In this document: in pieces, positions 5,405-23,093 of the stretch | How positions within the stretch are numbered: the stretch's first letter is position 1 | Layout: the number at the start of each line of letters is the position of its first letter | NCBI GenBank assembly: GCA_029561455.1 | Contig: JAKQIY010000036.1 | Location: 1-40,945 of the forward strand | Direction: 5' to 3' | Source of the DNA: a bacterium | Lineage (GTDB): Bacteria; Zhuqueibacterota; Zhuqueibacteria; Residuimicrobiales; Krinioviventaceae | Length of the DNA: 40,945 nt | Translations under genes and position numbers: made by a program | The notes under the pieces: generated by a model | What the model was told of the DNA's origin: nothing | The model's input: the letters and a program-made list of their open reading frames with translations, nothing else | The model's database searches: none

Positions 5405-5884
5405 TTATACATTTTCATAAACATGGGCAAAAAATACGGCAATACCGGTCAACACCTGTGATGAAAGATGATCGCCCACCTCGGTTCGCAGCGGCTCTAT
5501 GCCAAGATATTTAAAAGTAAACTGACGATGGTTCAGCAGGTATTTTTCCACCAGTTGTATTGAATAAGCGTGGGTGCTGATACCCATCGTATCAATAGCC
5601 GAGTTATCCAGCCAGCGAATTTCACCCGGTTCGCCTCCAAAACGCGCAGCATCAATAAAAACTACAACCCGCGCAGGTGAATCCAGAATCTGTTGCAGGT
5701 AATTTTCGGGATTTGTAAAGACATGTAGCAATCCCACCCCGTGAAACAAATCCATTTCTTTTAATTTATCAAGAAACAAAAGTCCGGCGGCATCATCGCC
5801 GCGGTATTCATTACCCAGGGCAACAAACAGTAAATCGGCTGCCGGGTACAAGGATAGCGGTTTGGCAAACTCGTTAAAATTCAT
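5405..5884 (-). CDS. Hydrogenase maturation protease (peptidase M52, HycI/HybD family)
   Basis: 159 residues from the ATG at 5884; a longer frame upstream is overlap with the neighbouring ferredoxin gene. It cleaves the C-terminal extension of a [NiFe]-hydrogenase large subunit after nickel insertion, in the cytoplasm. The family signature GNEYRGDDAAG (residues 24-34) carries the first metal-sensing Asp. The second Asp is in VVFIDAARF and the His is in STHAYSIQLV, so all three nickel-sensing ligands known from HycI (Asp, Asp, His) are visible. It is the last gene of the hydrogenase operon and overlaps the preceding gene by 11 bp. Its expected substrate is the large subunit at 12357-13544, which has a 34-residue tail after its last metal-ligand motif. 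Confidence 0.92.
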   Translation of the reverse strand: MNFNEFAKPLSLYPAADLLFVALGNEYRGDDAAGLLFLDKLKEMDLFHGVGLLHVFTNPENYLQQILDSPARVVVFIDAARFGGEPGEIRWLDNSAIDTMGISTHAYSIQLVEKYLLNHRQFTFKYLGIEPLRTEVGDHLSSQVLTGIAVFFAHVYENV

Positions 5885-6476
5885 CGGCAACGACAATTTT
5901 ATTCCGGCACCGGGGACAAACCTGCTTGATCTGGTCTTCGCGGCGGATGCGGCTTTTAACCTGGTATGGTTCGAGAGGTGTAAACAGTTTCTCCGTTTCC
6001 AGCAGCAGGTTGGGATGGGCATACGCTTTAGCCCCCAACCGCTCTTTTATATAGAGCAAATGCGGGCGGCAGGCGATTGCCTCGCCGCAGCTCTCGCACA
6101 CTACCAGGTCCCGGTCGATAGATTCAAAAACCATACTGTGCTGTTTATCCATCACCGCCAGCGAATAATCGTTGGATAATTTTATTCCTTTCTGGGTAAT
6201 GCATTTTTCCTCGCACTGACCGCAGTTCATACACAAACAATAATCCACCGTTAGGGTACGGGTTTGCTTTTGTAAATCATCAACGATAGAGATGGCTTTG
6301 GGGGGACAGACCTGGGCGCAGGCCCCGCAACCGACGCAGAAATCTTTATTATATTTCGGCTTGCCCCGGAACTCTTCCGGCGCTGTATAGGGCTGAAATG
6401 GAAATTTACTCGTATAGGGCGCGGTAAAAAAAGAGGTCAGCGCTTCTTTAATTTCACGAATTTTGGGCATGTACAT
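5874..6476 (-). CDS. HycF/NuoI-like 2x[4Fe-4S] hydrogenase subunit with C-terminal Cys domain
   Basis: 200 residues. The ATG at 6476 is chosen over the in-frame ATG at 6506 because GGAG (6483-6486) sits six bases upstream of it. RGKPKYNKDFCVGCGACAQV is very close to the start of the HycF/HyfH ferredoxin domain. It holds two [4Fe-4S] motifs, CVGCGACAQVCP and CLCMNCGQCEEKC. As in E. coli HycF there is a further C-terminal cysteine region (CESCGEAIAC and VCPRC) that looks like a split zinc ribbon. The protein should link the distal clusters to the [NiFe] small subunit at the membrane arm. It is placed near the end of the operon, 67 bp after mnhG, apart from the other hydrogenase subunits. Confidence 0.88.
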   Translation of the reverse strand: MYMPKIREIKEALTSFFTAPYTSKFPFQPYTAPEEFRGKPKYNKDFCVGCGACAQVCPPKAISIVDDLQKQTRTLTVDYCLCMNCGQCEEKCITQKGIKLSNDYSLAVMDKQHSMVFESIDRDLVVCESCGEAIACRPHLLYIKERLGAKAYAHPNLLLETEKLFTPLEPYQVKSRIRREDQIKQVCPRCRNKIVVADEF

Positions 6477-6543
6477 AAAAGTCTCCGTACATTCAGAATA
6501 ATTCATTATACTGTTATCAGGAAATATATCTGCCGATAAATAT

Positions 6544-6879
6544 TTATTTTAATTCCTTATCTTTAGCATACTCATCGATCACAGATTCCCTGGTCAGGGG
6601 TATTCCGCCGCGATGCGCAGCACGGGCAATTGCATGTGCGGCAACCGGCGAGGATAAAAATATAAACATAATACCGAGCAGGGCTTTGAAACCGAAACTG
6701 GTAAAACCGTTGATCAAAAACACACCGAACAAAATTCCTGCAGAACCAAAGGTAACACATTTCGTTGCTGCCTGCAGGCGGTTGTATACATCCGGCAGGC
6801 GCACGAGTCCCAACACGCCAAGGAAATCGAAAGCAATGCCGATGAATATAAAGACCATTCCCAGGGTTTCTCTAATCAT
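6544..6879 (-). CDS. mnhG: Mrp/Mnh antiporter subunit G
   Basis: 111 residues with three transmembrane helices and the MnhG/PhaG signature: FLGVLGLVRLPDVYNRLQAA followed by TKCVTFG. It is a small membrane subunit of the Mrp Na+/H+ antiporter, also called MbhC in membrane-bound hydrogenases. The start overlaps the end of mnhF by 8 bp. In this operon it belongs to the ion-translocating arm attached to the [NiFe] hydrogenase rather than to a free-standing antiporter. Confidence 0.93.
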   Translation of the reverse strand: MIRETLGMVFIFIGIAFDFLGVLGLVRLPDVYNRLQAATKCVTFGSAGILFGVFLINGFTSFGFKALLGIMFIFLSSPVAAHAIARAAHRGGIPLTRESVIDEYAKDKELK

Positions 6880-7210
6880 CTAACTGTCTCCCTTCTAATA
6901 TCTTGGAAAATGCCAGCGAGGCGACAAAGCTTAATAATGCCCAGATCAGGGCAATATCCATAAAAAATCCCTGTTTATAATGTAAACCAATCAATGCCAG
7001 CATGCCGACAATCAATACGCCAAGAATATCAACGGCAACAATACGATCCGCAGCAGAAGGACCCACAATGACCCGGAACAACACAAACAGCGCACTGAAC
7101 AGATTGACATTAATCAGTTTGAATAAAATTTCCCCCTTGTAGACAAAGAAATTAAAATATACAAAAGCGGCAATAAACATTAATCCTGTTATCCATTTAA
7201 ACAATTTCAT
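6872..7210 (-). CDS. mnhF: Mrp/Mnh antiporter subunit F
   Basis: 112 residues with three transmembrane helices. The family core VIVGPSAADRIVAVDILGV is intact, including the conserved Asp residues of MrpF/MbhB. It overlaps mnhG by 8 bp and the end of mnhE by 4 bp (ATGA arrangement). Part of the Mrp arm of the hydrogenase complex. Confidence 0.93.
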   Translation of the reverse strand: MKLFKWITGLMFIAAFVYFNFFVYKGEILFKLINVNLFSALFVLFRVIVGPSAADRIVAVDILGVLIVGMLALIGLHYKQGFFMDIALIWALLSFVASLAFSKILEGRQLDD

Positions 7211-7713
7211 TCGAATACCTCCGCTAAAATATGTTCAAACCGCTGGCCGATCTGTTGTGTGTTTTCGTCTACTGTAGTGGCATGAACCTCAATACAATGA
7301 ATATAAATTTCTTTGCTATCCGGGTTTATGTCCACCGTCAGGGTGCCCGGTGTCAGGGTGATGGAATTGGTTAGAATGGTTATCGCCGAATCTTTGGTCA
7401 GTTTGGTTTTAATTTTTACAATTCCCGGTTTTATCGGCAGCATGGGGTGCAGAACAATAAAAGCCACATGAACATTCGCTTTGATCATTTCCCATAAAAA
7501 ATTAAAAAAATACCGTACTGCTGCAATAATCCTGTGCGGAACGCCGCGTTGTTTTGTGGTGGTAATAAAAAACTTGCCGGCTAGCAGAGTAACAACTGCC
7601 GCCAGGACTAGTCCGGCAATAACCTCCTGAAAATCCTTAATATCGGTCAATGCAAACCATACCAGCGCCGCCAGAATAAACACAGTGATTCTGCTTTTCG
7701 TTTCCACTTTCAT
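7207..7713 (-). CDS. mnhE: Mrp/Mnh antiporter subunit E
   Basis: 168 residues: two N-terminal hydrophobic helices (about 10-30 and 32-50), then a cytosolic domain. The core VHVAFIVLHPMLPIKPGIVK and the stretch LTNSITLTPGTLTVDI are typical of MrpE/MbhA. The start has a strong GGGGAGG ribosome binding site and lies 2 bp after mnhD. MrpE is needed for assembly or activity of Mrp complexes, but does not itself form the ion channel. Confidence 0.93.
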   Translation of the reverse strand: MKVETKSRITVFILAALVWFALTDIKDFQEVIAGLVLAAVVTLLAGKFFITTTKQRGVPHRIIAAVRYFFNFLWEMIKANVHVAFIVLHPMLPIKPGIVKIKTKLTKDSAITILTNSITLTPGTLTVDINPDSKEIYIHCIEVHATTVDENTQQIGQRFEHILAEVFE

Positions 7714-7715
7714 CG

Positions 7716-9191
7716 TTACCTCCCCATCACTACGTGCAGGTATTGTGATTTTTGGGTAATTACATTGACAACCGGGTCCATAATCGCTTCACGAATACCG
7801 GGAATGATCAATGCGCTGGTAACCAGGCAAAGAACCGCCAGACAGATCATCGCCAGGTTCATGGACCAGCCAACCTTGTTTACGGTTTTTTCGATGATCT
7901 TTTCACCGTGGAAACCATAGCGCTGTACTTTCATGAATGAAGCCAGGGTTAATAGGCTGCCGACAACAGCCACCAAAGCATACACAGGATGCCCGGTTTT
8001 GATGGCGGCAATGATGATCACCAACTTGCTGAAAAAACCGTTAAATGGCGGAATGCCGGAAATGGATAATGAGGCAATCATGGAGGTGCCGGAAGTTACC
8101 GGTAAAATCCTGGATAGATTTCCCAGATGTTTCAGATTCCTGGTTCCCAGCGCCAGTTCAACCGACCCGGCATTATAGAAAAGTAAAGATTTAAACAGGG
8201 CATGGTTGAACATGTGAAAAACCGCGCCAAAAATTGCCAGCGGCGAAGCCAGGCCTAATCCCAGCAGAATATACCCGATCTGGCTGATACTGTGATACGC
8301 CAGCAGCCGTTTCATATCCCACTGGCCGATGGCAAGGAATACACCGACAAGTATTGATATCGAGCCTAACACCAGGAATAAAGTGAGGAATAATCTAGGC
8401 GCGCCTAATACATTGAAAAAGAACCGTATCAACACATACACGCCCAGGGCTTTGATAAGCACACCGGAAAGCATGGAAGATATGGGCGCCGGCGCTGAAG
8501 AATGAGCGTCCGGCAGCCAGGCATGGAACGGCATGGCGGCGGTTTTTAATCCGAATCCCGCCATGAACAATCCACCCACCCACAACACCATTTTTTGGTC
8601 AAGAAGCGGTAAACGTTGCGCGATAACAGACATGGTCAGCGAAGAAGTAGCGCTGTAAATAACGGCAATGCCAAATAAAATAATGGTAGAGGAAACCGAA
8701 CCCATAACGGCATACTTGAAAGCCGCTTCATATTCTTCAGCCTTGCCGCCAAAAGCAACCAGGCCAAAAGCGGCAAACAAGGCAATTTCCATAAACACAA
8801 ACAGGTTAAAAATATCGCCGGTCATCACCACGCCGTTCATTCCGGTGAGCAATAACATAAATAACGCATAATATTTCCAATCCTGCTGCAAATGCCGGAT
8901 ATATTGAATGGAAAAAAGCGCCGAGGTAAAGGAAATGATGGCGATCATAACCATCATAAATCCGGACAACGGATCCAGCACCAGGCTGATACCATAAGGA
9001 ATCGCCCAGGCGCTCATTTGATAGGTTTGCGTTTGTGCGCCGGTTATAATAAAACTGTACAGCGACATACACAATAATATAGTCACCGCAAACAAGGTCA
9101 AAATCACAGCAGCCGTATCTTTTTTACCGCCAATAAAAGTAATCAGAAAGGCTGTTAGCAGTGGCACAATAATCAATAAAGGCAGAATCAT
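7716..9191 (-). CDS. mnhD: Mrp/Mnh antiporter-like subunit D (NuoM/N-type)
   Basis: 491 residues, about 14 transmembrane helices, of the proton-conducting transporter family shared with complex I. Key charged residues are present: Glu135 in NLFVFMEIALFAAFG (TM5), Lys216 in FGLKTAAMPFHAWLPD (TM7), Lys247 (TM8) and Lys in NGFFSKLVI (TM12). It therefore looks fully competent for ion translocation, like MrpD/MbhH. It overlaps mnhC by 4 bp (ATGA). It is one of two antiporter-type subunits in this operon; the other is at 10547-12367. Confidence 0.94.
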   Translation of the reverse strand: MILPLLIIVPLLTAFLITFIGGKKDTAAVILTLFAVTILLCMSLYSFIITGAQTQTYQMSAWAIPYGISLVLDPLSGFMMVMIAIISFTSALFSIQYIRHLQQDWKYYALFMLLLTGMNGVVMTGDIFNLFVFMEIALFAAFGLVAFGGKAEEYEAAFKYAVMGSVSSTIILFGIAVIYSATSSLTMSVIAQRLPLLDQKMVLWVGGLFMAGFGLKTAAMPFHAWLPDAHSSAPAPISSMLSGVLIKALGVYVLIRFFFNVLGAPRLFLTLFLVLGSISILVGVFLAIGQWDMKRLLAYHSISQIGYILLGLGLASPLAIFGAVFHMFNHALFKSLLFYNAGSVELALGTRNLKHLGNLSRILPVTSGTSMIASLSISGIPPFNGFFSKLVIIIAAIKTGHPVYALVAVVGSLLTLASFMKVQRYGFHGEKIIEKTVNKVGWSMNLAMICLAVLCLVTSALIIPGIREAIMDPVVNVITQKSQYLHVVMGR

Positions 9192-9526
9192 CCTAACAGC
9201 CTCCTTATTTTGGTAATGTCAAAAGTTTTATATTTACCGTATAGCCGGACCGCCAGGGCAACCAGTAATGCGGTTATACCGAGTTCAATAACAATCGAGG
9301 TAAGCACCAGCGCCTGCGGTAAGGGATCGACCATGGCGGTAACACTTGTTCCCTTTTCCAGGATCGGATAATGGGCGCCGGTTCGGTAGGCAAAGATAAT
9401 GAGAAACAGGTTAGTTGAATAACCCATTATCGCCAGGGAAAGAATTATTTTCACCAGATCCCGTTTGGTTATTACGCCATAAAAACCCACCAGAAAGAGG
9501 ATAAAACACATCAGGTAAATGGTCAT
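9188..9526 (-). CDS. mnhC: Mrp/Mnh antiporter subunit C (NuoK-like)
   Basis: 112 residues, three transmembrane helices, homologous to NuoK/MrpC/MbhG. The second helix region IMGYSTNLFLIIFAYRTG and DPLPQALVLTSIVIELGITA are characteristic; the Glu in VIELGITA is the conserved membrane carboxylate. ATGA overlaps join it to mnhB upstream and mnhD downstream, indicating translational coupling. Confidence 0.94.
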   Translation of the reverse strand: MTIYLMCFILFLVGFYGVITKRDLVKIILSLAIMGYSTNLFLIIFAYRTGAHYPILEKGTSVTAMVDPLPQALVLTSIVIELGITALLVALAVRLYGKYKTFDITKIRRLLG

Positions 9527-9972
9527 TGTTCTTCTTCCTCCTCTATTTTAAATGCAGCCATAACCCAGACAACCAGGAACAGGGACATGGCTACCTTGAC
9601 GCCGATAATTATATTCAACAGCGGTATAGTACCGGCGCTGAATAAATGATACAAGGAACCTTTGATAATGTAATTAGCCAGAAAAGAACCGGCATAGAAA
9701 ATACCCAGTAAACCGACCAGCATGAATAACAGGGTGCTGCCCGATTCCAGTTTCTCAAGCAGAGGGATTTTAAGCCATTCACCGGTGAATTTGTGGCCAA
9801 AAGCCAGTAACACATTCAAAAAGGCCAGCGCTATTACAACCCCCCCGCCAAAGCCGCCGCCCGGCGTTAAATGACCATGCAAAATGATATATAATCCATA
9901 CAGGATAATTAACCATACCGATAACCGGGTAACGGTTTTAACAATCAGCGTCATTCCATCATGACTTTTCAT
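9523..9972 (-). CDS. mnhB: Mrp/Mnh antiporter subunit B
   Basis: 149 residues with four transmembrane helices. HLTPGGGFGGGVVIALAFLN is the diagnostic MnhB/MbhF motif (H-x-T-P-G-G-G-F). The C-terminus is a short acidic tail (EEEEEQ). It begins 3 bp after the MbhD/E-like gene and overlaps mnhC by 4 bp. Confidence 0.94.
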   Translation of the reverse strand: MKSHDGMTLIVKTVTRLSVWLIILYGLYIILHGHLTPGGGFGGGVVIALAFLNVLLAFGHKFTGEWLKIPLLEKLESGSTLLFMLVGLLGIFYAGSFLANYIIKGSLYHLFSAGTIPLLNIIIGVKVAMSLFLVVWVMAAFKIEEEEEQ

Positions 9973-9975
9973 TTT

Positions 9976-10518
9976 TCACCTTTTTTCCATTTTTGTACGG
10001 GATTTAATTCTTAATACAGTCAGGGCGCCTAAAATAGCGGTAAACAACACTGTCACTTCACCAAGGGTATCATAAGCCCGGTAATCGAGAATGATCGAAC
10101 TGACCAGGTTGGCGGCGCCGGTTTCGGCTGCCCCATTATCCAGATAATACTGTGAAGTAGTCATTAACGGCTCGCCAAACACCGGCAAACTTTTAAAGAT
10201 GGGAATACTGAAAATAAATATGACGACCAATATAATGACGGTTATACCGGAGAGATAAAGATTGATCCGTGATGGAGTTTCCACATGATAATCTTTTTTA
10301 ATAAATGCTTTGATTAAAATAATTATTGCAAAAATCTCAAATAAAAACTGCACAATAGCCAGGTCCGGCGCCTGCAGGAACAGAAAAGCAACCGATACCC
10401 CCAAACCGACTATGCCGATGGCTATTATCGCCGAAAGAATATCTTTTAACTCTAACGCCACAACAGAGCCGATAATCATTATACCGAGTACAAAAGTTAA
10501 CCAGGTTTCAACAGGCAT
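9976..10518 (-). CDS. MbhD/MbhE-like fused membrane subunit (MrpA C-terminal equivalent)
   Basis: 180 residues. The N-terminal half (about 1-90) is a DUF4040/MbhD module with three helices and the LQAPDLAIVQFLFEIFAIII core. The C-terminal half has two more helices and ends DTLGEVTVLFTAILGALTVL, which matches MbhE and the end of MrpA. In archaeal MBH these are two genes; here they form one protein, as in the C-terminal part of full MrpA. Together with the preceding 606-residue subunit it reconstitutes a split MrpA. The conserved Glu residues in the first half are presumed to lie on the ion path. Confidence 0.85.
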   Translation of the reverse strand: MPVETWLTFVLGIMIIGSVVALELKDILSAIIAIGIVGLGVSVAFLFLQAPDLAIVQFLFEIFAIIILIKAFIKKDYHVETPSRINLYLSGITVIILVVIFIFSIPIFKSLPVFGEPLMTTSQYYLDNGAAETGAANLVSSIILDYRAYDTLGEVTVLFTAILGALTVLRIKSRTKMEKR

Positions 10519-10546
10519 TATAACCTCCGTACAAATCCATATCCGC

Positions 10547-12367
10547 TTAGCGGATCAACATCATAAAAACAAGCACGCCAATTAATATGTATAAAACATA
10601 CAACTGCAATTGTCCGGGATGACCTTTCTGGAACAACCCGGATAAAGAAAAAGTAAACCGGGAGCCCAAATCATAAATATCGAAATACTTTTTTTCTGCC
10701 GCATTGTAGAACTGCTGTAACGGGCGCATATTACGTATTTCATTATAGAATCCTGTACCGGTTATCCGGTATTTTTCCAGCGCCGGCATACCGCCGAGGT
10801 AATTCTCATCATAACGGACATTTTTTGTAGCCAGGTAAACGATAATGCCTACCAGGAAAGCTATAGTCACCAGGCCCAGTACCAGCAGCGGATTATAGGT
10901 ACCGAGGAATTCCGGGATCGGGTAACCGCTTTCTACCAGAACCGGGTAGATCAGTTTCTGCAAGGGGATTTGCAGGGCAAACAGGCCAAACAGGATACAC
11001 AAGGCGGAAAGCAAACCGGTAGCGAGCCATTGATTAATACCGGCCTCGCGGATGCGGTTATATTTGGCCGGACGCTTACCCAGGAAAATGGCATGCAAGA
11101 ACTTTAAAAAGCTGGCCAGGGTCAAAGCGCTGCCAAATACTGCCAAAATCAGGCAGATCAGCAGCCATATTTGTTGTGCAGGGGTTAAATCGCGGGCCAT
11201 TTCCAGCAAGCCCTGGTATATCATCCATTTGGAGAAAAAGCCATTGAACGGTGGAATCCCGGATATGGAAAAAGCGCCGATGATCGCCATAATAAAAGTG
11301 AGTGGCATCTTTTTACCCAGCCCGCCCAGTTCATCCAGATCGTTGCTGCCGGTTTGCTTTTCTACCGAACCCAGGGCGAGGAACAGGTTCGATTTATATA
11401 TAGTATGATTGACCAGGTGAAACAAACCACCGGCAAAAGCCAGTACACAACCACTGCCAATACCAATGATCATATACCCCACCTGGCTCACGGCATGGTA
11501 ACCGAGCAATTTACGCCCATTATGCTGGATCATCGCCATCATCACGGCAAAAATGACCGTCAAAGCTCCCAGGGTGACGATCACCAGGTGCATAGTAACA
11601 TTGATTTCAAATAGAATTGTCATCATACGGGCCAGCAGGTAAATGCCCAACAGTTTATCGAGCGAAGCAGGGAGAAAAGCTGCGCTTTCCACCGGGGCAT
11701 CTTTACTGAAATCGGGAACCCAGGTATGCAGCGGGAAACCGCCGGCTTTGGCAAAAGCGGCAATCAGCAGGCTTATAAACGCCGCCCAGGCCAGTTCGCA
11801 GTTCAAAGTTATATGCAGGCCGAATAATGACCAATTCGTTCCCGGTTGCAAAAACCGCATGGCAACCAGACCAAAGATCAAAAAGACATCGCTGCCGCCA
11901 ATAATAATAAAGGTTTTTTTAGCGGTTTTGGGAGTATCCGCCGTTTGACCCAACAGCGCAAATAAATACAACGCCAGACCGGAGAGTCCCCAGAAAATGA
12001 TAAACAGTAAAATGTTTTCGCTAATAATAACCCCGTTACAAACAGCAACCGTTAACGGGTATAAAAGCAAAAACTTTTTTTCATTGGCTTTATCCAGTCC
12101 ATGTAACGAAAAGATCAGAATGATAAAACTGAGAAGCTGAATAAAGGCCAGGACAAACAACCCTAACCGGTCGACAGTAAAAAGCGTTAAATCCATATAA
12201 GAAAGACTGGCGGCGGGTTCCAGAAATAGATAATAAATAAGAACGATAGTATAAGCCAGTCCGAAAAAAGTAAAAACTTTTTGCAGTAACGGCGGCACCA
12301 GACTATTCAGCGCCGCTATTCCCAAAGGAACCGCGACCAGGTAGATCAGTATTAAACTAGCGTCCAT
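10547..12367 (-). CDS. NuoL/MrpA-N/HyfB-like antiporter subunit
   Basis: 606 residues, about 14-15 transmembrane helices, from the NuoL/MrpA/HycC proton-conducting superfamily. Lys207 in FAKAGGFPLHTWVPD (TM7), Lys238 (TM8) and Lys in NGFFSKWMIY (TM12) are present. At the TM5 site where NuoL and MrpA have W-E-G-x-G, this protein reads FWGLSGLALY (residues 125-134): the usual Glu appears to be Gly127. The C-terminal ~100 residues form an extra hydrophilic and helical extension. It overlaps the large-subunit gene by 11 bp, so it is the first membrane-arm gene after the catalytic genes. It is an additional antiporter module compared with archaeal MBH, which has only the MrpD type. Confidence 0.9.
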   Translation of the reverse strand: MDASLILIYLVAVPLGIAALNSLVPPLLQKVFTFFGLAYTIVLIYYLFLEPAASLSYMDLTLFTVDRLGLFVLAFIQLLSFIILIFSLHGLDKANEKKFLLLYPLTVAVCNGVIISENILLFIIFWGLSGLALYLFALLGQTADTPKTAKKTFIIIGGSDVFLIFGLVAMRFLQPGTNWSLFGLHITLNCELAWAAFISLLIAAFAKAGGFPLHTWVPDFSKDAPVESAAFLPASLDKLLGIYLLARMMTILFEINVTMHLVIVTLGALTVIFAVMMAMIQHNGRKLLGYHAVSQVGYMIIGIGSGCVLAFAGGLFHLVNHTIYKSNLFLALGSVEKQTGSNDLDELGGLGKKMPLTFIMAIIGAFSISGIPPFNGFFSKWMIYQGLLEMARDLTPAQQIWLLICLILAVFGSALTLASFLKFLHAIFLGKRPAKYNRIREAGINQWLATGLLSALCILFGLFALQIPLQKLIYPVLVESGYPIPEFLGTYNPLLVLGLVTIAFLVGIIVYLATKNVRYDENYLGGMPALEKYRITGTGFYNEIRNMRPLQQFYNAAEKKYFDIYDLGSRFTFSLSGLFQKGHPGQLQLYVLYILIGVLVFMMLIR

Positions 12368-13544
12368 AAATATCCCTCCTGATCCGTTCAGTCTTTTCGC
12401 GTGATAATTTTAACAGATCAATTTGCATGGGTTCTCTCTTGTTATCATAGACCCTGAGCGACCGTTCCGTGCAGCAATAGCATGGATCGACGGCCGCCGT
12501 GGTGATGAGGGCATCGGCAATGGGAATACCGACACAGGATGCCGCATAAGTCGGAATGTTAACATAGCTGGGGGCGCGCACCTTGTGGCGGATGGGGCGG
12601 TTGCTGCCGTCGGTACGCACATAATGGAACACCTCACCGCGCGGCGCTTCGTAACGCCCAATACCCTCTCCCGGCGAAATTTCTTTAACATTGTTAACAA
12701 TCGGGCCTTTAACTTCTTTTAATTTTTGCAGGCATTGCCGGCAAATTTTTATCGATTCGAGGGTTTCCAGCACCCGCAGCACCAGTTTGTCATACACATC
12801 GCCATTCTGCATGACTATCACATTGAAATCCACCAGACTATAAGCATCAATATCTTCAGATTTACGGATATCGGCAGGAATGCCCGACGCCCGCGAGGTC
12901 GGCCCGACTGCGCAAAAATTAACCGCATCGTCATGTTTCAACACACCCACGCCTTTGAGGCGCGATTTAATGACCGGGTCGTCATTCGCCGCGCCGGCCA
13001 GCATCGCCATCTTTTTCTCTACCATGTCCAGAATTTCCAGCAGTCCCGCTATTTTTTCGGCATCAACATCTTTGGCTACGCCGCCAACCCGCATCATACC
13101 ATAATGGTTGCGGTTACCGGAAATAATCTCAAACATTTGCAGCACCGGTTCGCGGTACTTCCATGCCCACATCCATAAAGTGTCATAGCCTATAAAATGA
13201 CCGGCCAGTCCCATCCATAACAGGTGGCTGTGAATGCGTTCCAGTTCACCCACCAGGGTACGGATATACCGGGCCCGCAGGGGAATCTCGATATTATCGA
13301 CATCTTCAATAGCATGCACACAGGCAATTGGATGCGAAGAACTGCAAATGCCGCAAATACGCTCCACCAGATAGATGGACTGGGTAAAAGTTTTTTGTTC
13401 GGAAATGAACTCGTGGCCGCGGTGCATCCAGCCGATGTCGAGGTCGATACCGACCACAGTTTCGCCATCAACCACCAGGTTAAAATATTCGGCCTCTTCG
13501 AGCAAGGGATGAAACGGCCCTACCGGGATTGTATTGCTGTTCAT
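12357..13544 (-). CDS. Group 4 [NiFe]-hydrogenase large subunit (HycE/MbhL/NuoD-like)
   Basis: 395 residues. Nickel-iron site ligands are intact: ERICGICSSSHP (C64, C67) near the N-terminus and DPCYCCTER (C355, C358) near the C-terminus, so this is a hydrogenase and not a complex I NuoD. The C-terminal motif is followed by a 34-residue tail, close to the 32-residue peptide that HycI removes from E. coli HycE. Group 4 membership follows from the short length, the D-P-C-x-x-C-T-E-R form and the NuoC, NuoB, NuoH and Mrp neighbours. It catalyses H+/H2 interconversion at the cytoplasmic face of the membrane. It overlaps the NuoC-like gene by 4 bp. Confidence 0.95.
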   Translation of the reverse strand: MNSNTIPVGPFHPLLEEAEYFNLVVDGETVVGIDLDIGWMHRGHEFISEQKTFTQSIYLVERICGICSSSHPIACVHAIEDVDNIEIPLRARYIRTLVGELERIHSHLLWMGLAGHFIGYDTLWMWAWKYREPVLQMFEIISGNRNHYGMMRVGGVAKDVDAEKIAGLLEILDMVEKKMAMLAGAANDDPVIKSRLKGVGVLKHDDAVNFCAVGPTSRASGIPADIRKSEDIDAYSLVDFNVIVMQNGDVYDKLVLRVLETLESIKICRQCLQKLKEVKGPIVNNVKEISPGEGIGRYEAPRGEVFHYVRTDGSNRPIRHKVRAPSYVNIPTYAASCVGIPIADALITTAAVDPCYCCTERSLRVYDNKREPMQIDLLKLSREKTERIRRDIYGR

Positions 13545-13972
13545 GACATCCTCCTGAATCGTAAAGGTTTATCTAATCCCTGTGGATGGTCTTTGGAAAG
13601 CAGGCGTTCCGGCCGCGGATGGCCGATAAATTCAATGCCCCAAAATTCTGCCATTTCCCGTTCAATCCATTCCGCCCCCCTGATAATCGGGGTGATCGAA
13701 TTCATAACCGGCTTTTGCAGATTGGTCATTACAACTCTTGGGCAATAGTACTGCCCGGTGGCGTCATGCGAGAAATGATAGAGCACTTCAATACCATGAT
13801 ACATTTCAGTGGCTGTGGCTGTAGATAACCGGCAGCCCATTTTATGAAACAAGAATTTAACAACCTCATGCAGGTCGTCATTATTCACTTCAAAATATAA
13901 CCGTCCCTTCTTGTCGATGGTTTTATGTATTTTATTTCCCATTGCTTCCAGGAACTCCTTGCAATCAGCCAT
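13541..13972 (-). CDS. NuoC/HycE-N-like hydrogenase subunit (30-kDa type)
   Basis: 143 residues of the complex I 30-kDa family (NuoC, MbhK, EchD, or the N-terminal part of HycE). The family core runs through GAEWIEREMAEFWGIEFIGH and the terminal DHPQGLDKPLRF. It has no cofactor and serves as a structural subunit that docks the large subunit on the membrane arm. In E. coli HycE this domain is fused to the catalytic subunit; here it is a separate gene. It overlaps the small-subunit gene by 8 bp. Confidence 0.92.
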   Translation of the reverse strand: MADCKEFLEAMGNKIHKTIDKKGRLYFEVNNDDLHEVVKFLFHKMGCRLSTATATEMYHGIEVLYHFSHDATGQYYCPRVVMTNLQKPVMNSITPIIRGAEWIEREMAEFWGIEFIGHPRPERLLSKDHPQGLDKPLRFRRMS

Positions 13973-14384
13973 TCAGCACCTCCACAAGTTTTACAATGCC
14001 CTCGATCATCGCTTCGGGTTTGGGCGGGCATCCCGGTATGTATAAATTGATGGGAATGATCTCCTCTCTGACAGGCACCTTGTTATAGCTATCATTAAAA
14101 CAGCAGCCGCCGGAAGGACACGTACCAACCCCGACGACAAAGATCGGCCTTGGCGCCTGTTCATAGAGATGTTTCACTTTGGGTGCAACTTTTTGATTGA
14201 TAATACCGCTCAACAATAACACATCGGCATGCCGCACCGACCCGACCAGCTTGATGCCAAACCGTTCGACATCATATTTCGGCGTCAACAGGTCGAGGAT
14301 TTCAATATCACAATTATTGCATGGCGAAGCGCTGACATGAAAAACCCATATCGATTTGGCCAGACGTTTATTATACCATCCCAT
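13965..14384 (-). CDS. [NiFe]-hydrogenase small subunit (HycG/MbhJ/NuoB-like)
   Basis: 139 residues, the short form without extra clusters. Four cysteines for the proximal [4Fe-4S] cluster are visible in VSASPCNNCDIEILDLL, GVGTCPSGGC and IPGCPPKPE. It transfers electrons between the nickel-iron site and the HycF-like or HycB-like ferredoxin subunits. There is no signal peptide, in line with a cytoplasm-facing group 4 enzyme. It abuts the NuoH-like gene with a 1-bp gap. Confidence 0.93.
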   Translation of the reverse strand: MGWYNKRLAKSIWVFHVSASPCNNCDIEILDLLTPKYDVERFGIKLVGSVRHADVLLLSGIINQKVAPKVKHLYEQAPRPIFVVGVGTCPSGGCCFNDSYNKVPVREEIIPINLYIPGCPPKPEAMIEGIVKLVEVLNG

Positions 14385-14385
14385 A

Positions 14386-15315
14386 CTACACTCCTAACAC
14401 TGCTAAAATTAAGGCAATGAAAGCCAGGGGCGTCGCGTATTTCCAAAAGAAATTCAGAGCCGTATCAATGCGGACGCGCGGATTTGTATTTTTTATAATG
14501 ATAATGAGCACAATAATGAGTATATATTTTAAAATCGCCCAGAGTATACCAATACCTTGAAAATTAAAACCGCCCATAAACAACAGGATCAGCAAAAACG
14601 GCAGAATAACATACATCATAAAATGGTTCAGCTTCCAGAAAGCCAGGGGCGGGCCGCTGTATTCCATAAACGGGCCTTCAACGATTTCTGTTTCCGCTTC
14701 GGGAATGTGAAACGGCGGCAGAGTCATTTTTGCCTGAATACATAACAGACCGATGACAAAAGCAATAAACCCGGAAACTGAGCCGATAAAAACGCCCTGC
14801 TCTGCCTGAACCAGCAGCAACTGTTCGAGATTAACCTGGTAACCGGATTTTATGATCGGGACAAGGCAAACAAGAATGAACGCCAGTTCATCGGCCAATA
14901 GCAATTTAATCTCCCGCCCGGCGCCAATGCTGGAATAGACATTGCCGGTTGCAGCCCCGCCCATAACGATCATAACCGAATAAACCATCAACAGATACAT
15001 AATAACCAACAAATCGCCGCCAAAGCCCCGGCTAAAAAACAGGGCCATACCGATCAATGTAGCAATAAAGGCCAGGGTGGCAAAAGCAATAAACGGCGCG
15101 GCTAAGAACAGTGAATGAATTCCCTCTTTGACGATGATGGTTTCTTTACCGAGCAGTTTAAAGAAATCATTGAAATTTTGCCAAAACGGGGGGCCGACGC
15201 GGAACTGAAACCGCGCCGACACTTTGCGGTCGATCCAGCCTACAGACAAACCCAATACTGCTGTAAACAGCAGACCGGGGAAAATCAGCAGAAAAAACAG
15301 GTATTCCGGATTCAT
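14386..15315 (-). CDS. NuoH-like membrane anchor (HycD/MbhM/EchB)
   Basis: 309 residues, about eight transmembrane helices, complex I subunit 1 family. The cytoplasmic loops read FQFRVGPPFWQNFNDFFKLL and FHIPEAETEIVEGPFMEYSG; the latter is the highly conserved acidic loop that couples the catalytic arm to ion translocation. It should seat the NuoB-like subunit on the membrane. ATGA overlap with the upstream HycB-like gene. Confidence 0.94.
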   Translation of the reverse strand: MNPEYLFFLLIFPGLLFTAVLGLSVGWIDRKVSARFQFRVGPPFWQNFNDFFKLLGKETIIVKEGIHSLFLAAPFIAFATLAFIATLIGMALFFSRGFGGDLLVIMYLLMVYSVMIVMGGAATGNVYSSIGAGREIKLLLADELAFILVCLVPIIKSGYQVNLEQLLLVQAEQGVFIGSVSGFIAFVIGLLCIQAKMTLPPFHIPEAETEIVEGPFMEYSGPPLAFWKLNHFMMYVILPFLLILLFMGGFNFQGIGILWAILKYILIIVLIIIIKNTNPRVRIDTALNFFWKYATPLAFIALILAVLGV

Positions 15316-15815
15316 ACTTTGCCCTCCTTGCGCCGCCAGTTGGGACTCTTGATCGCCAGGTGTTTACCCGCGAACCATAATTTGTTTTTGGGATCCTCCT
15401 CCGCAATTTCCAGCATTGCAAAGGTTTGTTCCGGTGCGGTTTTTACACATGCCGGCTGGTATTCCGGGTCTTGCTGCAATTGCTGTAAACAAAAATCGCA
15501 CTGTGCGGTAATATAGTTTAAAACTTCGGGAAAGATCGTGCCGAACGGACAAGCCAGTGCGCAGCTTTTGCAGCCCACACAGCGCATATTGTAACGTTTG
15601 ATCGTCCCGCTTTCCAGCCGTTCCAGCGCCTCTACCGGGCATGCCAGCACGCAGAACGATTCCGGGCACTGGCGGCAATAGGCGGCAAATTCGGCGATTT
15701 CGAGCAAGGTAAACGGTCCCCGGTTAGTCCGGTGAAACAGGTATTCACATTCGATCTTGTCCGCCGCAGCCCCGGAATTCAGTAATGCAGGAATATCGAT
15801 GAATAGCTTTTTCAT
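15312..15815 (-). CDS. HycB/CooF-like polyferredoxin subunit
   Basis: 167 residues from the ATG at 15815, which forms an ATGA overlap with the gene before it; a TTG two codons upstream is less likely. Cysteine motifs are CRQCPESFCVLACP, CVGCKSCALACP and CDFCLQQLQQDPEYQPAC, i.e. the DMSO-reductase-type electron-transfer subunit pattern seen in HycB, CooF and HydN. In formate hydrogenlyase this subunit carries electrons from formate dehydrogenase to the hydrogenase. Here no formate dehydrogenase is encoded nearby, and the gene follows directly after the flavoprotein pair. It is the likely wire between diaphorase and hydrogenase. Confidence 0.88.
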   Translation of the reverse strand: MKKLFIDIPALLNSGAAADKIECEYLFHRTNRGPFTLLEIAEFAAYCRQCPESFCVLACPVEALERLESGTIKRYNMRCVGCKSCALACPFGTIFPEVLNYITAQCDFCLQQLQQDPEYQPACVKTAPEQTFAMLEIAEEDPKNKLWFAGKHLAIKSPNWRRKEGKV

Positions 15816-16633
15816 TCCCAAATATCCTCCTCATTCTTTATCTGCGCATAAGTGAAAACCGGACCATCCTTGCAGGCATAGTAACCGCCCATCACACAAT
15901 GCCGGCACTGGCCAAACCCACAGTACATTTTCTTTTCCATAGAAAGGTAGATATTTTCATCTTTATAACCATATTTAAGCAGATCCATTGTGCCGAATTT
16001 CATCATTATCGGCGGTCCGCATACCACGGCAGGATTGTGCGCGGGATCGATATCCAGCTTTTTCAGCAGAGTGGTTACCAGTCCCACATCTTCATTCCAG
16101 GTCTCACCTGCCGGTACCACATCGACGCTGCGTAAAAACCGCACATTTTTATATTTGCGCCATTCAGTAACAGCATCTTTATAAATACAATCTTGAGGCG
16201 TTTTTGCTCCGGCAAAAAAAGTAATACTGTTATACTTTTCCACATCATGAAGCAGGGTAAGGAACAGCGAGCGTAACGGGGCCAGGCCGCAGCCACCGCC
16301 AAGTATTAAAAGGTCTTTGCCCGCAAATTTCTCCAAAGGATAGCGGGTTCCGTAAGGACCGCGCAGACCAACCTGATCACCCGGCTGCGCTTTGTGCACA
16401 TATTCGGTGACAAAGCCGGTCTTCATAATGGTAATGTCCATCTCCTCACTGATATAATGAGAAGATGATGGCGTAAATGGTCCTTCGCCAATGCCGGGGA
16501 TCGTAAGTTCAATAAACTGTCCGGTCTTAAAGGGGATCGGTCGTTCCGGTTTTACCCGTAACGTTCGGATCAACGGCGATTCCTGGATGACATCGTAAAT
16601 AGTGGCCGGAATAACCTCATACGGATTATGCAT
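15812..16633 (-). CDS. Sulfhydrogenase gamma-like FAD/NAD(P)/[2Fe-2S] subunit
   Basis: 273 residues, starting at the ATG at 16633 with GAGGAG about seven bases upstream. It is a ferredoxin-NADP-reductase-type flavoprotein. FAD-binding region: FTPSSSHYIS and LRGPYGTRYPL. NAD(P)-binding: LILGGGCGLAPLRSLF and VVCGPPIMMKF. C-terminal [2Fe-2S] site: MYCGFGQCRHCVMGGYYAC. This is the architecture of the gamma subunit of cytosolic sulfhydrogenases (HydG/HyhG; not the H-cluster maturase also called HydG) and of AsrB. It should exchange electrons with NADH or NADPH. It lies 35 bp after the beta-like subunit. The choice between NADH and NADPH cannot be made from sequence alone. Confidence 0.9.
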   Translation of the reverse strand: MHNPYEVIPATIYDVIQESPLIRTLRVKPERPIPFKTGQFIELTIPGIGEGPFTPSSSHYISEEMDITIMKTGFVTEYVHKAQPGDQVGLRGPYGTRYPLEKFAGKDLLILGGGCGLAPLRSLFLTLLHDVEKYNSITFFAGAKTPQDCIYKDAVTEWRKYKNVRFLRSVDVVPAGETWNEDVGLVTTLLKKLDIDPAHNPAVVCGPPIMMKFGTMDLLKYGYKDENIYLSMEKKMYCGFGQCRHCVMGGYYACKDGPVFTYAQIKNEEDIWE

Positions 16634-16668
16634 ATTTTTCTCCTCAGCCTCTCTGGAATAAAAAATTT

Positions 16669-17703
16669 TTATGATACTACAGCCACAGTTTCGGAAATAT
16701 TGCGCACAACCTGGCGGAAATCGATTCCTGCCGTACAGGTTTCGGTACAGCGCCCGCAACCGGTACAGCCGAGTTCGCCAAAGTTACTGTGCATAAACAG
16801 AAATTTACAGAGATAACGGTTGCGGAAACGCTGGAACATTTTCGGGCGCGGCGAGCCGCCTCCGGCTACACGGGCATAGCCATGTAACTGGCAGGAATCC
16901 ATTGAGCGGACCTTGACAAACTGCTGCGCTTTGGTTTCATCATTCAAAATCAAACAATAACAAGTGGGACAAATATGCGTACAGGCGCCACAGCCCACAC
17001 AGGTTAGGGATTCTCTGTTCCAGTTTTCTTTGCCGCTGCTTTGCAGCCGCGTATAATCGTCGCCCCGTTCAAAGGCCCGGTTTTGTTCGTGCAGCAAGCG
17101 GATGATTTCAGAACGTTTTTTTTCAATAGCGCTTTTTATCCCCTCTTTTGCCGGCTGCATGGAAAAATTTTTTGCCATCAAATCCAGTAATTCTTGCCCT
17201 TTATCGCTGCCGACTGTAACCCGGTATTGTTCGCCAAGCCGGGACAAATTCAAATCAAAACCAGCTTCAGCAAATGGTTTTCCGCCTGTCAGGGTACAAT
17301 GACAGGTTGGCGCAATTTCCGAACAATCCGTAGCTATGATCGTCGTACTATGTCGCCAGTGGCTATACCCCGGATCGACAAAATCTTTATTGATCATCGC
17401 CTGGTCGAGAACGTGCAGAGCGCGCAGATCGCATCCTTTGGCGCCGACAATGAGACGTTTAATAGCTGGAAACCCGGCGGGCAGCATTTTTTCGCGGGGT
17501 TGAAAAAAGAAGACTTTTAAAGGATCTACGGTACGGTATGAATCAAGGTTATACGTACCTGTTTGTGTCATAGGAGTAAAGTAATAATTTTTCAGGAGAG
17601 GATTTCGGGAGGGAGCGGGCAGAACGACCTGATCAAAATTATGGAATGTTTTATCAAGACATTTGTGCAGAAAGGAAAAAAAATCTTCCACTTTAATAAC
17701 CAT
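16669..17703 (-). CDS. Sulfhydrogenase beta-like iron-sulfur subunit (HydB/HyhB/AsrA family)
   Basis: 344 residues and first gene of the operon; GGAGGTG lies five bases upstream of the ATG. Two [4Fe-4S] motifs are visible: CVGCGACTHICPTC (C235-C248) and CTGCGRCTETC (C313-C323). A conserved stretch around residues 125-140 (TDCSEIAPTCHCTL) is typical of the beta subunit of group 3b sulfhydrogenases and of AsrA. It accepts electrons from the gamma flavoprotein and passes them on. In this operon the usual partners HydD and HydA (group 3b small and large subunits) are missing, and group 4 catalytic genes stand in their place. Confidence 0.9.
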   Translation of the reverse strand: MVIKVEDFFSFLHKCLDKTFHNFDQVVLPAPSRNPLLKNYYFTPMTQTGTYNLDSYRTVDPLKVFFFQPREKMLPAGFPAIKRLIVGAKGCDLRALHVLDQAMINKDFVDPGYSHWRHSTTIIATDCSEIAPTCHCTLTGGKPFAEAGFDLNLSRLGEQYRVTVGSDKGQELLDLMAKNFSMQPAKEGIKSAIEKKRSEIIRLLHEQNRAFERGDDYTRLQSSGKENWNRESLTCVGCGACTHICPTCYCLILNDETKAQQFVKVRSMDSCQLHGYARVAGGGSPRPKMFQRFRNRYLCKFLFMHSNFGELGCTGCGRCTETCTAGIDFRQVVRNISETVAVVS

Positions 17704-18233: not shown

Positions 18234-18569
18234 TTACCTTAACCCGACCTGGTACAATTGTCCGGCGACCTCGAAAGCGTTATTGGGGGTTGTAAAAACC
18301 GGAATGTTCTTTTGCTCCGCTTTTTCAACCGCATCCGGTTCCGGTTTTATTCCGCCCGGCAGAATGACCCCGGCCAGACCTTTGAAAAAAACCAGGGCAA
18401 TTATATTAACATGGGTCTGGTTGGTAATCCACAGTTCACCTTTACGGGCTCTGGCCATAACATCACTCAAAATGTCGGAAAAGATTGCGCCGGTTACTTC
18501 GGTATTCAAGTCCGGTCCCGGATGTAACGGGATCAGGTGCAGTTTGATAATAATACTTTTCAAATCCAT
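18234..18569 (-). CDS. DRTGG-domain protein
   Basis: 111 residues, one DRTGG-like domain: AIFSDILSDVMARARKGELW, then THVNIIALVFFKGLAGVILP and a C-terminal IPVFTTPNNAFEVAGQLY. Stand-alone DRTGG proteins are often encoded with [FeFe]-hydrogenase subunits and HsfB-type sensors, and are thought to bind a small ligand or nucleotide; their precise role is unknown. Here it follows the [FeFe]-like sensor kinase by 81 bp on the same strand and precedes the [NiFe] operon. AGGATA lies just upstream of the ATG. It probably acts with the kinase in signalling. Confidence 0.8.
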   Translation of the reverse strand: MDLKSIIIKLHLIPLHPGPDLNTEVTGAIFSDILSDVMARARKGELWITNQTHVNIIALVFFKGLAGVILPGGIKPEPDAVEKAEQKNIPVFTTPNNAFEVAGQLYQVGLR

Positions 18570-18650: not shown

Positions 18651-20702
18651 TCAAACAGGGTCACTCTCCTTATGCAACAATACCTGGTTAAACAGACCAT
18701 TATTCTGCATAGCTCTGGCCGTCGGCAAAAAAACGGTAAAGGTTGCGCCTTCTCCTGCCTTGCCGGATACACTTATTTCACCCTGGTGTTTTTGGATGAT
18801 GCCGTAAGAAATTGCCAGTCCCAACCCCGTGCCCTTGCCTGGCGGCTTGGTGGTGAAAAATGGATCAAAAATCTTGTCCTTAATCTCATCTGCTATACCC
18901 GGCCCGGTATCGGTAAAAATGGCCATCACGCGCTGCCGGTCGGGTGACATATCGGTTTTAACCACCAGCTGACCATTGCCCTGCATGGCTTCGGCGGCAT
19001 TTAAAATGATATTTAAAAAGATCTGCTGAATTTGTCCGACATCGACAAACACTTTATCGATGTCGCCCTGCAATTCCTTAACGATCTCGATGTTTTGAAA
19101 AATTGCCTGACGTTCAATTAAAGAGAGCGTGCTGGTTAATATTTTATTGAGATCAGTTATTGCCGCCTGGGTTCGCGATTGCCGGGAAAAGTCCAGTAAA
19201 CCCTGCACTATTTTACGGCACCGCTCCGTTTCATCGACTATTCTTTTCAGGTCGGTATAATCCTGGTCAGTTTTGTTTTTTTTCTCCATGAGCAGATTGG
19301 TAAAAATAAGAATGCCACCCAACGGATTGTTCAGTTCGTGCGCGACCCCGGCGGCCAGTTCGCCAATGGAAGCCAGTTTTTCAGATTGTACCAATTGCTG
19401 CTGGGTTTTACGCAGCGTATCCAGCGATTCCTTTAATTCCTGATTGGACTTTTGCGCTTCATTCTGTACCTGTTCCAGCTTGTCAATCATATAGGGCAAA
19501 CACATTTCAGCCTCCGCCAGTCCCCGGAAAACCGCAACAGCTTTTTCATAACAGGAAGGGTAACCGCAAGCGCCGCAATTTAATTCGTCTTCTGGATTCA
19601 TTTTCCCGGTCATTGCCAGAATGCGTTTAATATCGGCTTTGCCAGGTTGTTTTTCCGGCTTGTATTCATTGGTGAACTGCCGGCTTGTATCCGGTATTTG
19701 CTCCTGACTAATTTCCCGGGGCGATTCCAGCCGGGACTGTTCTTTGATGTAATTAATAACCCGATCTTTTTTCACAAAAACCGACAGGGAGTTGTCTATT
19801 TTGGGTCCATTAATACAGCCTTCACAAAACAGAATATCAAGGAATTTGGCCTCGATCTCCCCTTCTGCGGCTTTACTGATAATTTCCAATACCCGATCCC
19901 GCCCTTCGGTAACGATAATATCATTATCAGTAATATCGGCATCAATGCCGGCGCTTTTTAATAAACCACCGGAAACCGGAAACAGTTTACCGTGCTGTCC
20001 GCGCGGCCCATCAAATTCACTATTGGACAAATCAGCCAGTTGAATTTGATTATAATCAAACATGGCTTTCAATTCATCGAACGTTAAAACGCAGTCAATT
20101 ACAGCTTCAAGTTTGTTGTCAATCATCTCCCGCTTTTTGGCTATGCAGGGTCCGATAAAAACCAGGTGGTTGTCTCCGCCGTAATTCTTTTTAATATAAC
20201 GGCCGACAGCGATCATTGGGGAAACTACCGGCGCCAGACAAATAGACAAAAAAGGATAGTACTTTTCAATATAACTCACCACGGCGGGGCACGGCGATGA
20301 GATGATTACCGGCATTACGTTGGCTTCCAGCAGTTGTTTGTACTTGAAACTTACCAGGTCTGCCCCAAAGGCGACATCAAACACCCTGGCAAAACCTAAC
20401 TGCCTGATTGCAGTAAGTACCTGGGCCGGGGAAATATCGGGAAAAGCGGCCGGAAAAGAGGGCGCCAGCAGTGCATACACATTTTTACGGGTACTGAGTA
20501 ATTGCATGACCGGTAAAATATCATCGCGAATGCTTTTGGCGTTTTGCGGACAGACGCGCACACAATAGCCGCAGGCAATGCAACGCTCGGCAATAACCTG
20601 AGCCTGGCCTTTTTCGACCTTGATGGCTTTGGCGGGGCAATTACGTATACATGAGTAACAACGTTTGCACCTGGTTTCGATTGTGGTAACTACTGGCGAC
20701 AA
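18651..20702 (-). CDS. [FeFe]-hydrogenase-like sensor histidine kinase (HsfB-type)
   Basis: 683 residues, no transmembrane helices. Order: two [4Fe-4S] motifs ([24 protein letters not shown]; residues 12-51); an [FeFe]-hydrogenase large-domain homologue (about 60-325) with SSPCPAVV (C138), [10 protein letters not shown] (C186) and FCEGCINGP (C293, C296); an FeS domain CGACGYPSC-x16-C (376-401); a coiled coil (about 405-445); HisKA with phospho-acceptor His455 in [14 protein letters not shown]; and an ATPase with N, G1 (DTGPGI), F and G2 ([11 protein letters not shown]) boxes. The cysteine that relays protons in catalytic enzymes is replaced by Pro137. It is best read as a H2 or redox sensor. 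The start must be TTG at 20702, because an in-frame stop lies just upstream and no ATG precedes the first cluster. No response regulator is adjacent. Confidence 0.9.
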
Positions 20703-20947: not shown

Positions 20948-21733
20948 TCAACCAACTAAAAAATTGCTTCCGACCAGGCCGTCCGGATAATAAAGCTGCC
21001 GATATTCTTCATTTTCCAGCAAATGCCGGGTTATAACCCCGTTTTCCCTGTCGATGAGATATTTTAATTCGGTGATATTTTCCGACCACGTATTGCCGTT
21101 AAAAAACTGCATACCGGGAAACTGGGTTTTATAGAGCGCACTGCGGCTGTAACAGGAACCGAGATAAATATTTTCAATACCATACTCTTTCATCAAACCT
21201 ACAACCACCGTCATCATGTACATGCCAAGATGGTCGGCCGGAAATTGTAAATCATAAAAGGCATAGTAATAAAAAGCCATCGCAGGTTTTTGCAGGTAAA
21301 GCATTACCAGGCCGATTTCTTTTCCCGAAGTTTTATCGGTAAAAATAACCAGGTGTGATATGATCGGTGAACTCATCAACCGATCCAGCCGCTCATAACT
21401 CATCACATCCTGTCCGAATTTGGCATCCGCATAATTCTTACAAAACTCGCGCCATTGCCGGGTAAAGTCAAAATCACTGCGGGGAACTAGTTTAATAGCT
21501 ATCTCCCCGCCTTTGCGTAGTATGCGCCGGTTTTCAGAAGACGGCTGGTATTTATCCAACACGACCCGGATATTGCGGCATAAATAAAAGCGATCCAGGT
21601 TGGGAGAATTGGGTAAAAATCCCCGGCTAAATAGATCTGCCGGGGTTTCGTGTGATTCCGGAACCGCCCATATTGAATATGGGAAGATATAATGCTCGTA
21701 ATCCGATTTATATTCTGAAAAAAACAATTTCAT
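20948..21733 (-). CDS. GNAT-fold protein resembling arginyl/leucyl-tRNA-protein transferase C-domain
   Basis: 261 residues from the ATG at 21733 (an ATG at 21751 is also possible; a longer frame overlaps the upstream gene). It starts MKLFFSEYKSDYEHYIFPYS, like the N-end-rule ATE/Bpt family. The C-terminal half has AFYYYAFYDL, LGMYMMTVVVGLMKEYGIEN and YLGSCYSRSALYKTQFPGMQ, similar to the ATE motif in which a Y-I-x-S-C-x-K-M-x-Y-K segment is followed by a proline-containing turn. The N-terminal Cys pair of true ATE enzymes is not seen. A role in transferring an aminoacyl or acyl group is plausible; a specific substrate cannot be named. It follows the ATP-grasp gene and probably shares its transcript. 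Confidence 0.55.
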   Translation of the reverse strand: MKLFFSEYKSDYEHYIFPYSIWAVPESHETPADLFSRGFLPNSPNLDRFYLCRNIRVVLDKYQPSSENRRILRKGGEIAIKLVPRSDFDFTRQWREFCKNYADAKFGQDVMSYERLDRLMSSPIISHLVIFTDKTSGKEIGLVMLYLQKPAMAFYYYAFYDLQFPADHLGMYMMTVVVGLMKEYGIENIYLGSCYSRSALYKTQFPGMQFFNGNTWSENITELKYLIDRENGVITRHLLENEEYRQLYYPDGLVGSNFLVG

Positions 21734-21788
21734 AGGTACAGGTTCTTTCATTGCGCTAGTTGAAATTGAGAATTGATTGAGAAACCTG

Positions 21789-23054: not shown

Positions 23055-23093
23055 GAATTCAATCAGCCTTTCTTCAGATAGCAAACAGTAAAA

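Follow-up and report, generated by a model that had tools for sequence, protein, structure and literature searches.

Introduction

The membrane-bound hydrogenase (MBH, group 4d) of Pyrococcus furiosus joins core [NiFe] hydrogenase subunits to an Mrp-derived membrane part and takes its electrons from ferredoxin; its structure contains, to our knowledge, neither a HydB/HydG pair nor a HycB-like subunit, and it has one large antiporter subunit. MBH cannot use NADPH directly (PMC4731540). The Mrp-Mbh-Fdh and Mrp-Mbh-Codh complexes of Thermococcus onnurineus follow a trimodular plan of input module, Mbh and Mrp, with formate or CO as input. P. furiosus sulfhydrogenase I (SHI, group 3b) is a soluble enzyme that combines beta and gamma subunits with group 3b catalytic subunits. 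Here we describe an operon on contig JAKQIY010000036.1 (40,945 bases, the whole of which we call the window), from a 5.85 Mb bacterial genome that is 98.8% complete. Homologues of the SHI beta and gamma subunits (HydB and HydG), with the same Cys pattern, precede a group 4 [NiFe] core and Mrp subunits. The core and membrane part are shared with MBH, with two large antiporter subunits rather than one, and the trimodular plan with the T. onnurineus complexes, with NAD(P)H in our reading in place of formate or CO; unlike SHI, the operon pairs HydB and HydG with group 4 and membrane subunits, and its HydG stands on a separate branch. It probably encodes one trimodular complex, whose genes point to a reversible, ion-translocating NAD(P)H:H+ oxidoreductase.

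The hydrogenase database HydDB (PMC5037454) describes the related group 4g as ‘ferredoxin-coupled (putative), undetermined role’, and a study of Ace Lake (PMC8542988) reports 4g hydrogenases with Mrp in Cloacimonadota and Omnitrophota, ferredoxin being assumed for Mbh. A close relative of the large subunit described here, at 68% identity, is found in the Mrp-linked locus L081 of Ca. Celaenobacter antarcticus, a metagenome-assembled genome whose Mrp-linked enzyme its authors call group 4g; group 4g and L081 are assumed to be ferredoxin-linked and L081 lacks HydB and HydG, whereas the present operon has both. A similar cluster with a group 4 [NiFe] core, Mrp-like subunits and adjoining asrA, asrB and cooF was described from Saganbacteria RX5A, Zixibacteria and Omnitrophica (Matheus Carnevali et al. 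2019, PMC6349859); both that cluster and the present operon have relatives in Zixibacteria and Omnitrophica. According to the parts of that paper dealing with the cluster, the RX5A region includes a molybdopterin oxidoreductase, an enzyme family absent from the present genome, and the complex is likened to Mbh, with no NAD(P)H role proposed. Searches of an open-access library gave no paper naming NAD(P)H as partner of this complex, which cannot settle priority. The scaffold and the input module were each already known; what we add is that the two are paired in a fixed manner across phyla, and a functional interpretation of that pairing.

Conservation of the operon

A scan of GTDB genomes gave at least 576 relatives, from which the best 80, covering ∼20 phyla by record title, were retained. 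At 54 loci the DNA upstream of HycE extends for 6.5 kb or more, which allowed the gene neighbourhood to be tested. HydB and HydG lie upstream of HycE in 53 of these (52 of 53 after merging L041 and L073, which are the same record), L081 being the sole exception. The testable loci are the nearest relatives, at about 53% identity and up, so that the figure does not speak for group 4g as a whole; within this scope the linkage of the pair to this core is far beyond chance.

In nine genomes of the same phylum (77–85% HycE identity) the order HydB-HydG-HycB-HycD-HycG-NuoC-HycE-antiporter-MbhDE-MrpB-G-HycF(-HycI) is kept, although one contig begins inside HydG and one ends inside Mrp, and the same order from HydB to HycF(-HycI) recurs in five further genomes of the phylum at 53–55%. 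The preliminary description had called the locus a hybrid operon. The three modules do stand together, but since the pair precedes the same core in so many loci and phyla the operon is no one-off hybrid; the complex it encodes is conserved and widespread, and is related to HydDB group 4g. Pairwise distances correlate with those of HycE for HydB (0.81) and HydG (0.86) as for the core subunits HycD (0.84) and HycB (0.78), against a maximum of 0.13 in shuffles: HydB and HydG have diverged in step with the hydrogenase to the same degree as its core subunits.

One locus, L060 (G011:C174), carries HydB-HydG-HycB-HycD-HycG-NuoC-HycE-HycF without Mrp, on a long branch outside the Mrp-linked clade. It may represent the HydB/HydG pairing before or after Mrp.

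The HydB/HydG pair

The best solved relatives of HydB and HydG are the beta (E 3e-36) and gamma (E 2e-52) subunits of SHI. An AlphaFold model of HydB (predicted local distance difference test score, pLDDT, 88) has as its top match 9nf0_B, the beta chain of NADPH-bound SHI (template modelling score 0.80); a model of HydG made without an alignment reached a pLDDT of 46 and was not used. All features of an SHI-type diaphorase are present: the FAD/NAD(P) domain, the DHODB-type [2Fe-2S] site and the Fe-S Cys pattern of the beta subunit. In HydB, fifteen Cys occur in every one of 65 sequences, with a sixteenth in 74%; in HydG, the four [2Fe-2S] Cys are kept in all 70 sequences and the GGxGxxPxR and GPP nucleotide motifs in at least 97%.

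NCBIfam scores of both proteins fall below the curated cut-offs of the sulfhydrogenase and anaerobic sulfite reductase (Asr) models alike, and therefore the names HydB and HydG denote homology rather than equivalog assignment. The top NCBIfam model for HydG is in fact AsrB (207 bits), and AsrA matches HydB (102 bits), as might be expected if the two were AsrA and AsrB of an anaerobic sulfite reductase, or parts of a sulfur reductase, lying beside a hydrogenase by chance. Given the sub-threshold scores, a hydrogenase linkage fixed across ∼20 phyla and the lack of any AsrC above cut-off in the genome (searches returned merely short partial matches in Fe-S proteins), we regard such a chance placement as very improbable.

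In a HydG tree from a short search, in which the long row L060 was placed at the root, a branch with support 97 parts the operon copies from group 3 HydG, SHI gamma and a third set. The operon HydG thus appears as a lineage separate from that of group 3b, and was therefore not borrowed from a sulfhydrogenase in the same cell. The pair had been described beforehand as typical of group 3b without its own catalytic subunits; homology and the absence of 3b catalytic subunits hold, with the amendment that HydG forms its own lineage. Sequence does not reveal whether NADH or NADPH is preferred. In the loop that follows the second nucleotide-binding strand, 70/70 HydG have a Lys or Arg (30 K, 40 R), but a basic residue at this place does not discriminate, being shared by P. 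furiosus SHI (TARYGKD) and by NqrF (GARSLRE), which is NADH-dependent.

Hydrogenase core and membrane module

The complex-I-like group 4 core is complete, with NuoB-, NuoC-, NuoD-, NuoH- and NuoI-like subunits all encoded. The large subunit, whose best solved relatives are Pyrococcus MbhL (E 9e-85) and Escherichia coli HycE (E 6e-63), has intact Ni-ligand motifs (RICGIC and DPCYCC), the four Cys (C64, C67, C355, C358) being kept in 92/92 aligned HycE members. Iron-sulfur ligands are conserved too: the HycB-like subunit has 12 Cys conserved in 99–100% of aligned members, enough for three [4Fe-4S] clusters, and in alignments of relatives the Cys of HycF suffice for two clusters with a further CxxC...CxxC site, and those of HycG for one.

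The membrane part has the composition of an Mrp-linked hydrogenase, namely MbhD/E, MrpB-G and two large antiporter subunits, of which the MrpD/MbhH subunit matches 6cfw_H (E 2e-73) and the other (606 aa) resembles MrpA, MbhH and MBS chain X. An earlier reading of this Mrp set as near-complete was too cautious: with the 606-aa antiporter and the MbhD/MbhE-like subunit together equalling MrpA, and MrpB-G intact, it is complete.

In a HycE tree, likewise from a short search and with L081 as its only labelled 4g or 4b reference, the window groups with KSB1, Ignavibacteriota, Neomarinimicrobiota, Cloacimonadota and Thermotogota. Fusions of HydB or HydG to other subunits, which would prove contact, were sought among the relatives and not found; the only fusions there join NuoC to HycE.

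Candidate partners in the genome

Whole-genome searches found no second HydB and no [NiFe] large subunit other than the group 4-like one, and hence no group 3b large and small subunits to pair with beta and gamma. They found no molybdopterin oxidoreductase (PF00384), with no FdhF-type formate hydrogenlyase subunit, and no carbon monoxide dehydrogenase (CODH) or prismane protein (PF03063). Formate dehydrogenase (FDH), CODH and AsrC are ruled out by these searches as partners of HydB and HydG. A formate- or CO-driven hydrogenlyase whose dehydrogenase is encoded elsewhere is suggested by the Thermococcus complexes, which use the same scaffold, and by a molybdopterin-family gene inside the operon of some relatives; it is contradicted for the host organism by the absence of both protein families, and its probability is minimal, since it would require a gene that the assembly missed. 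NAD(P)H input rather than formate or CO, as the preliminary description proposed, is the best-supported reading, and the genomic objections to it fail, since the competing dehydrogenases, hydrogenases and second HydB are all absent.

A stronger alternative is a ferredoxin-coupled Mrp-linked hydrogenase in which ferredoxin feeds HycF or HycB directly and HydB/HydG acts on the side to balance the electron chain against NAD(P)H, the two donors perhaps being used at once (confurcation). HycB and HycF are indeed ferredoxin-like, L081 has the scaffold without the pair, energetics favour ferredoxin, and ferredoxin is the donor in the HydDB entry and the one assumed in the Ace Lake study. Yet a pair found in 53/54 loci with invariant cofactor sites is too constant for an optional side module. 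Moreover, ferredoxin has other outlets, because the genome encodes Rnf and NADH-dependent A6-type [FeFe] hydrogenases adjoining NuoF-like genes (it also encodes [FeFe]-domain kinases). We consider ferredoxin coupling unlikely; for the Mrp-linked hydrogenases of this clade, the genetic evidence of linkage and cofactor sites argues for NAD(P)H over ferredoxin as partner. NAD(P)H may therefore be the electron partner of a class of enzymes now listed as ‘probably ferredoxin-driven’.

Proposed complex and energetics

Physical assembly, electron path, coupling and direction are our inferences. Because cofactor sites are conserved in all links, an unbroken electron route between NAD(P)H and the Ni-Fe site can be drawn, with inferred contacts. 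Electrons would pass from NAD(P)H to FAD and the [2Fe-2S] cluster in HydG, to the [4Fe-4S] clusters of HydB, then through those of the HycB-like subunit and HycF to the single HycG cluster and the Ni-Fe site of HycE, where protons would be reduced to H2, or the reverse. HycD, the two large antiporter subunits, MbhDE and MrpB-G would couple this flow to H+ or Na+ movement, as in Mbh.

With textbook in-vivo potentials (NADH −280, NADPH −370, ferredoxin −480 mV), H2 formation from NADPH is calculated to yield −8.6 kJ/mol at 100 Pa H2 and −14.3 at 10 Pa, neither of which would pay for a full ion at 180 mV. At low H2 the complex would discharge NAD(P)H electrons as H2, saving at most about one ion per H2 from NADPH, or spending the ion gradient when NADH is the donor; at high H2 it could reduce NAD(P)+, and the calculated energy of H2 oxidation with NAD+ at 1 bar suffices for ∼1.5 ions. 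These energetics suggest a reversible device, its direction set by H2 pressure and the ion gradient.

Several points weigh against this. H2 formation from NADH is calculated to cost energy once H2 exceeds a few Pa. The distance correlations would also be raised if the genes were simply inherited together as an operon. The 68% identical L081 has no HydB/HydG, which argues that the scaffold can run without the pair, and in relatives with a molybdopterin-family insert the pair might serve formate/NAD(P) exchange. The separation from group 3b comes from the HydG tree, the supposed group 3 rows of the HydB tree being operon copies again. Finally, the literature yielded neither biochemistry nor structure of such a complex.

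On balance, we favour the view that the widespread complex now labelled as ferredoxin-dependent is a one-piece NAD(P)H/H2 ion pump, a respiratory complex that would mirror complex I while evolving hydrogen, with an SHI-type input in place of the NuoEFG type and in some lineages possibly a molybdopterin partner. If so, it uses NAD(P)H while coupled to an ion gradient, allowing fermenters and syntrophs to void NAD(P)H electrons as H2, and would be a concrete Mbh-like enzyme with the pyridine-nucleotide input that complex I has. Metabolic models based on 4g would then have the wrong electron donor and energy yield for Omnitrophota, Cloacimonadota, Neomarinimicrobiota, KSB1, Ignavibacteriota and others.

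Variant loci and second HydB/HydG pairings

A molybdopterin-family gene lies between HydG and HycB in L112, L117, L124 and L135, and L120 has a similar-sized gene there with no Pfam match at the threshold used. As only some relatives have the insert, the molybdopterin gene is optional, whereas HydB/HydG stays constant. The insert loci match the Saganbacteria RX5A region as given in PMC6349859 (asrA, asrB, cooF, molybdopterin oxidoreductase, Mrp).

In L081 the place of HydB/HydG is taken by an upstream complex-I-like cluster (L081:208-7476), whose large subunit lacks Ni ligands; genes for a fusion of NuoI-GltD type (PRK13984) and for a CBS protein close this cluster.

Three KSB1 genomes have a second operon with its own HydG and hydrogenase genes immediately upstream, so two kinds of HydG can coexist in one cell; the large subunit of this second operon, as seen in L048, is a hydrogenase of family PF00374.

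Hyf/HycE-type group 4 large subunits of the same phylum (L025, L026, L027, L029-L037; operons L053-L057) contain an in-frame TGA in 12/12 cases, at the second Cys of the L1 motif (RICGI-U-G...HS), with L2 (DPCFSC) intact. It likely encodes selenocysteine, at a position that corresponds, going by other [NiFe] enzymes, to a bridging Ni-Fe ligand; classic [NiFeSe] enzymes have selenocysteine in L2 instead. A conserved hairpin-capable ACAGTAC-GTACTGT stretch just downstream of the TGA gave no Rfam match and weak fold shuffle z-scores, and SelB scores above cut-off in 57/82 genomes. The L053-L057 operons also carry HydB-HydG, so that the pair is joined to a group 4 hydrogenase in a second, separate way; in L055 (L055:695-4603) an FdhA-like gene lies directly upstream.

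Gene calls and neighbouring genes

All 17 minus-strand genes of the operon (17703→5405) were verified in place and strand (Table 1). Their mostly overlapping or abutting ends, reported earlier, are borne out: 13/16 junctions fall within −11 to +3 bp, gaps of 28, 35 and 37 bp separate the genes at the remaining three, and purine runs resembling ribosome-binding sites precede most starts. Relative to the mechanical open reading frame list, the start of HydG was revised to ATG 16633, as the TTG at 16759 falls within HydB, and that of HycI to ATG 5884.

Table 1. Genes of the operon, in order of transcription
Product	Coordinates	Strand	Basis
HydB/AsrA-like beta subunit, 344 aa, 16 Cys matching P. 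furiosus SHI beta Cys positions	16669..17703	-	homology, AlphaFold model
HydG/AsrB-like gamma subunit (FAD, NAD(P), [2Fe-2S]), 273 aa, corrected ATG	15812..16633	-	
HycB/CooF-like ferredoxin subunit, 12 conserved Cys, room for three [4Fe-4S]	15312..15815	-	
HycD/MbhM/NuoH-like membrane anchor	14386..15315	-	
HycG/MbhJ/NuoB-like small subunit, four invariant Cys	13965..14384	-	
NuoC/MbhK-like subunit	13541..13972	-	
HycE/MbhL-like [NiFe] large subunit, RxCGxC and DPCxxC intact	12357..13544	-	
Large antiporter-like subunit, 606 aa, MrpA N-part/MBS H'-like	10547..12367	-	
MbhD+MbhE-like subunit (MrpA C-part)	9976..10518	-	
MrpB/MnhB	9523..9972	-	
MrpC/MnhC (NuoK-like)	9188..9526	-	
MrpD/MbhH antiporter subunit	7716..9191	-	
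MrpE/MnhE	7207..7713	-	
MrpF	6872..7210	-	
MrpG	6544..6879	-	
HycF/MbhN/NuoI-like 2x[4Fe-4S] subunit with extra CxxC...CxxC site	5874..6506	-	
HycI-type hydrogenase maturation protease, corrected ATG	5405..5884	-	

Elsewhere in the window, at 20948-23084 (minus strand), an arginyltransferase-like protein adjoins a PurD-like ATP-grasp protein, both scoring below family cut-offs. Just upstream of the operon, also on the minus strand, lie genes for a DRTGG-domain protein (18234-18569) and for an [FeFe]-hydrogenase H-cluster domain fused to a histidine kinase (18651-20702). This pair, which precedes the operon in G037 as well and partly in G036 and G041, is a possible H2 or redox sensor.

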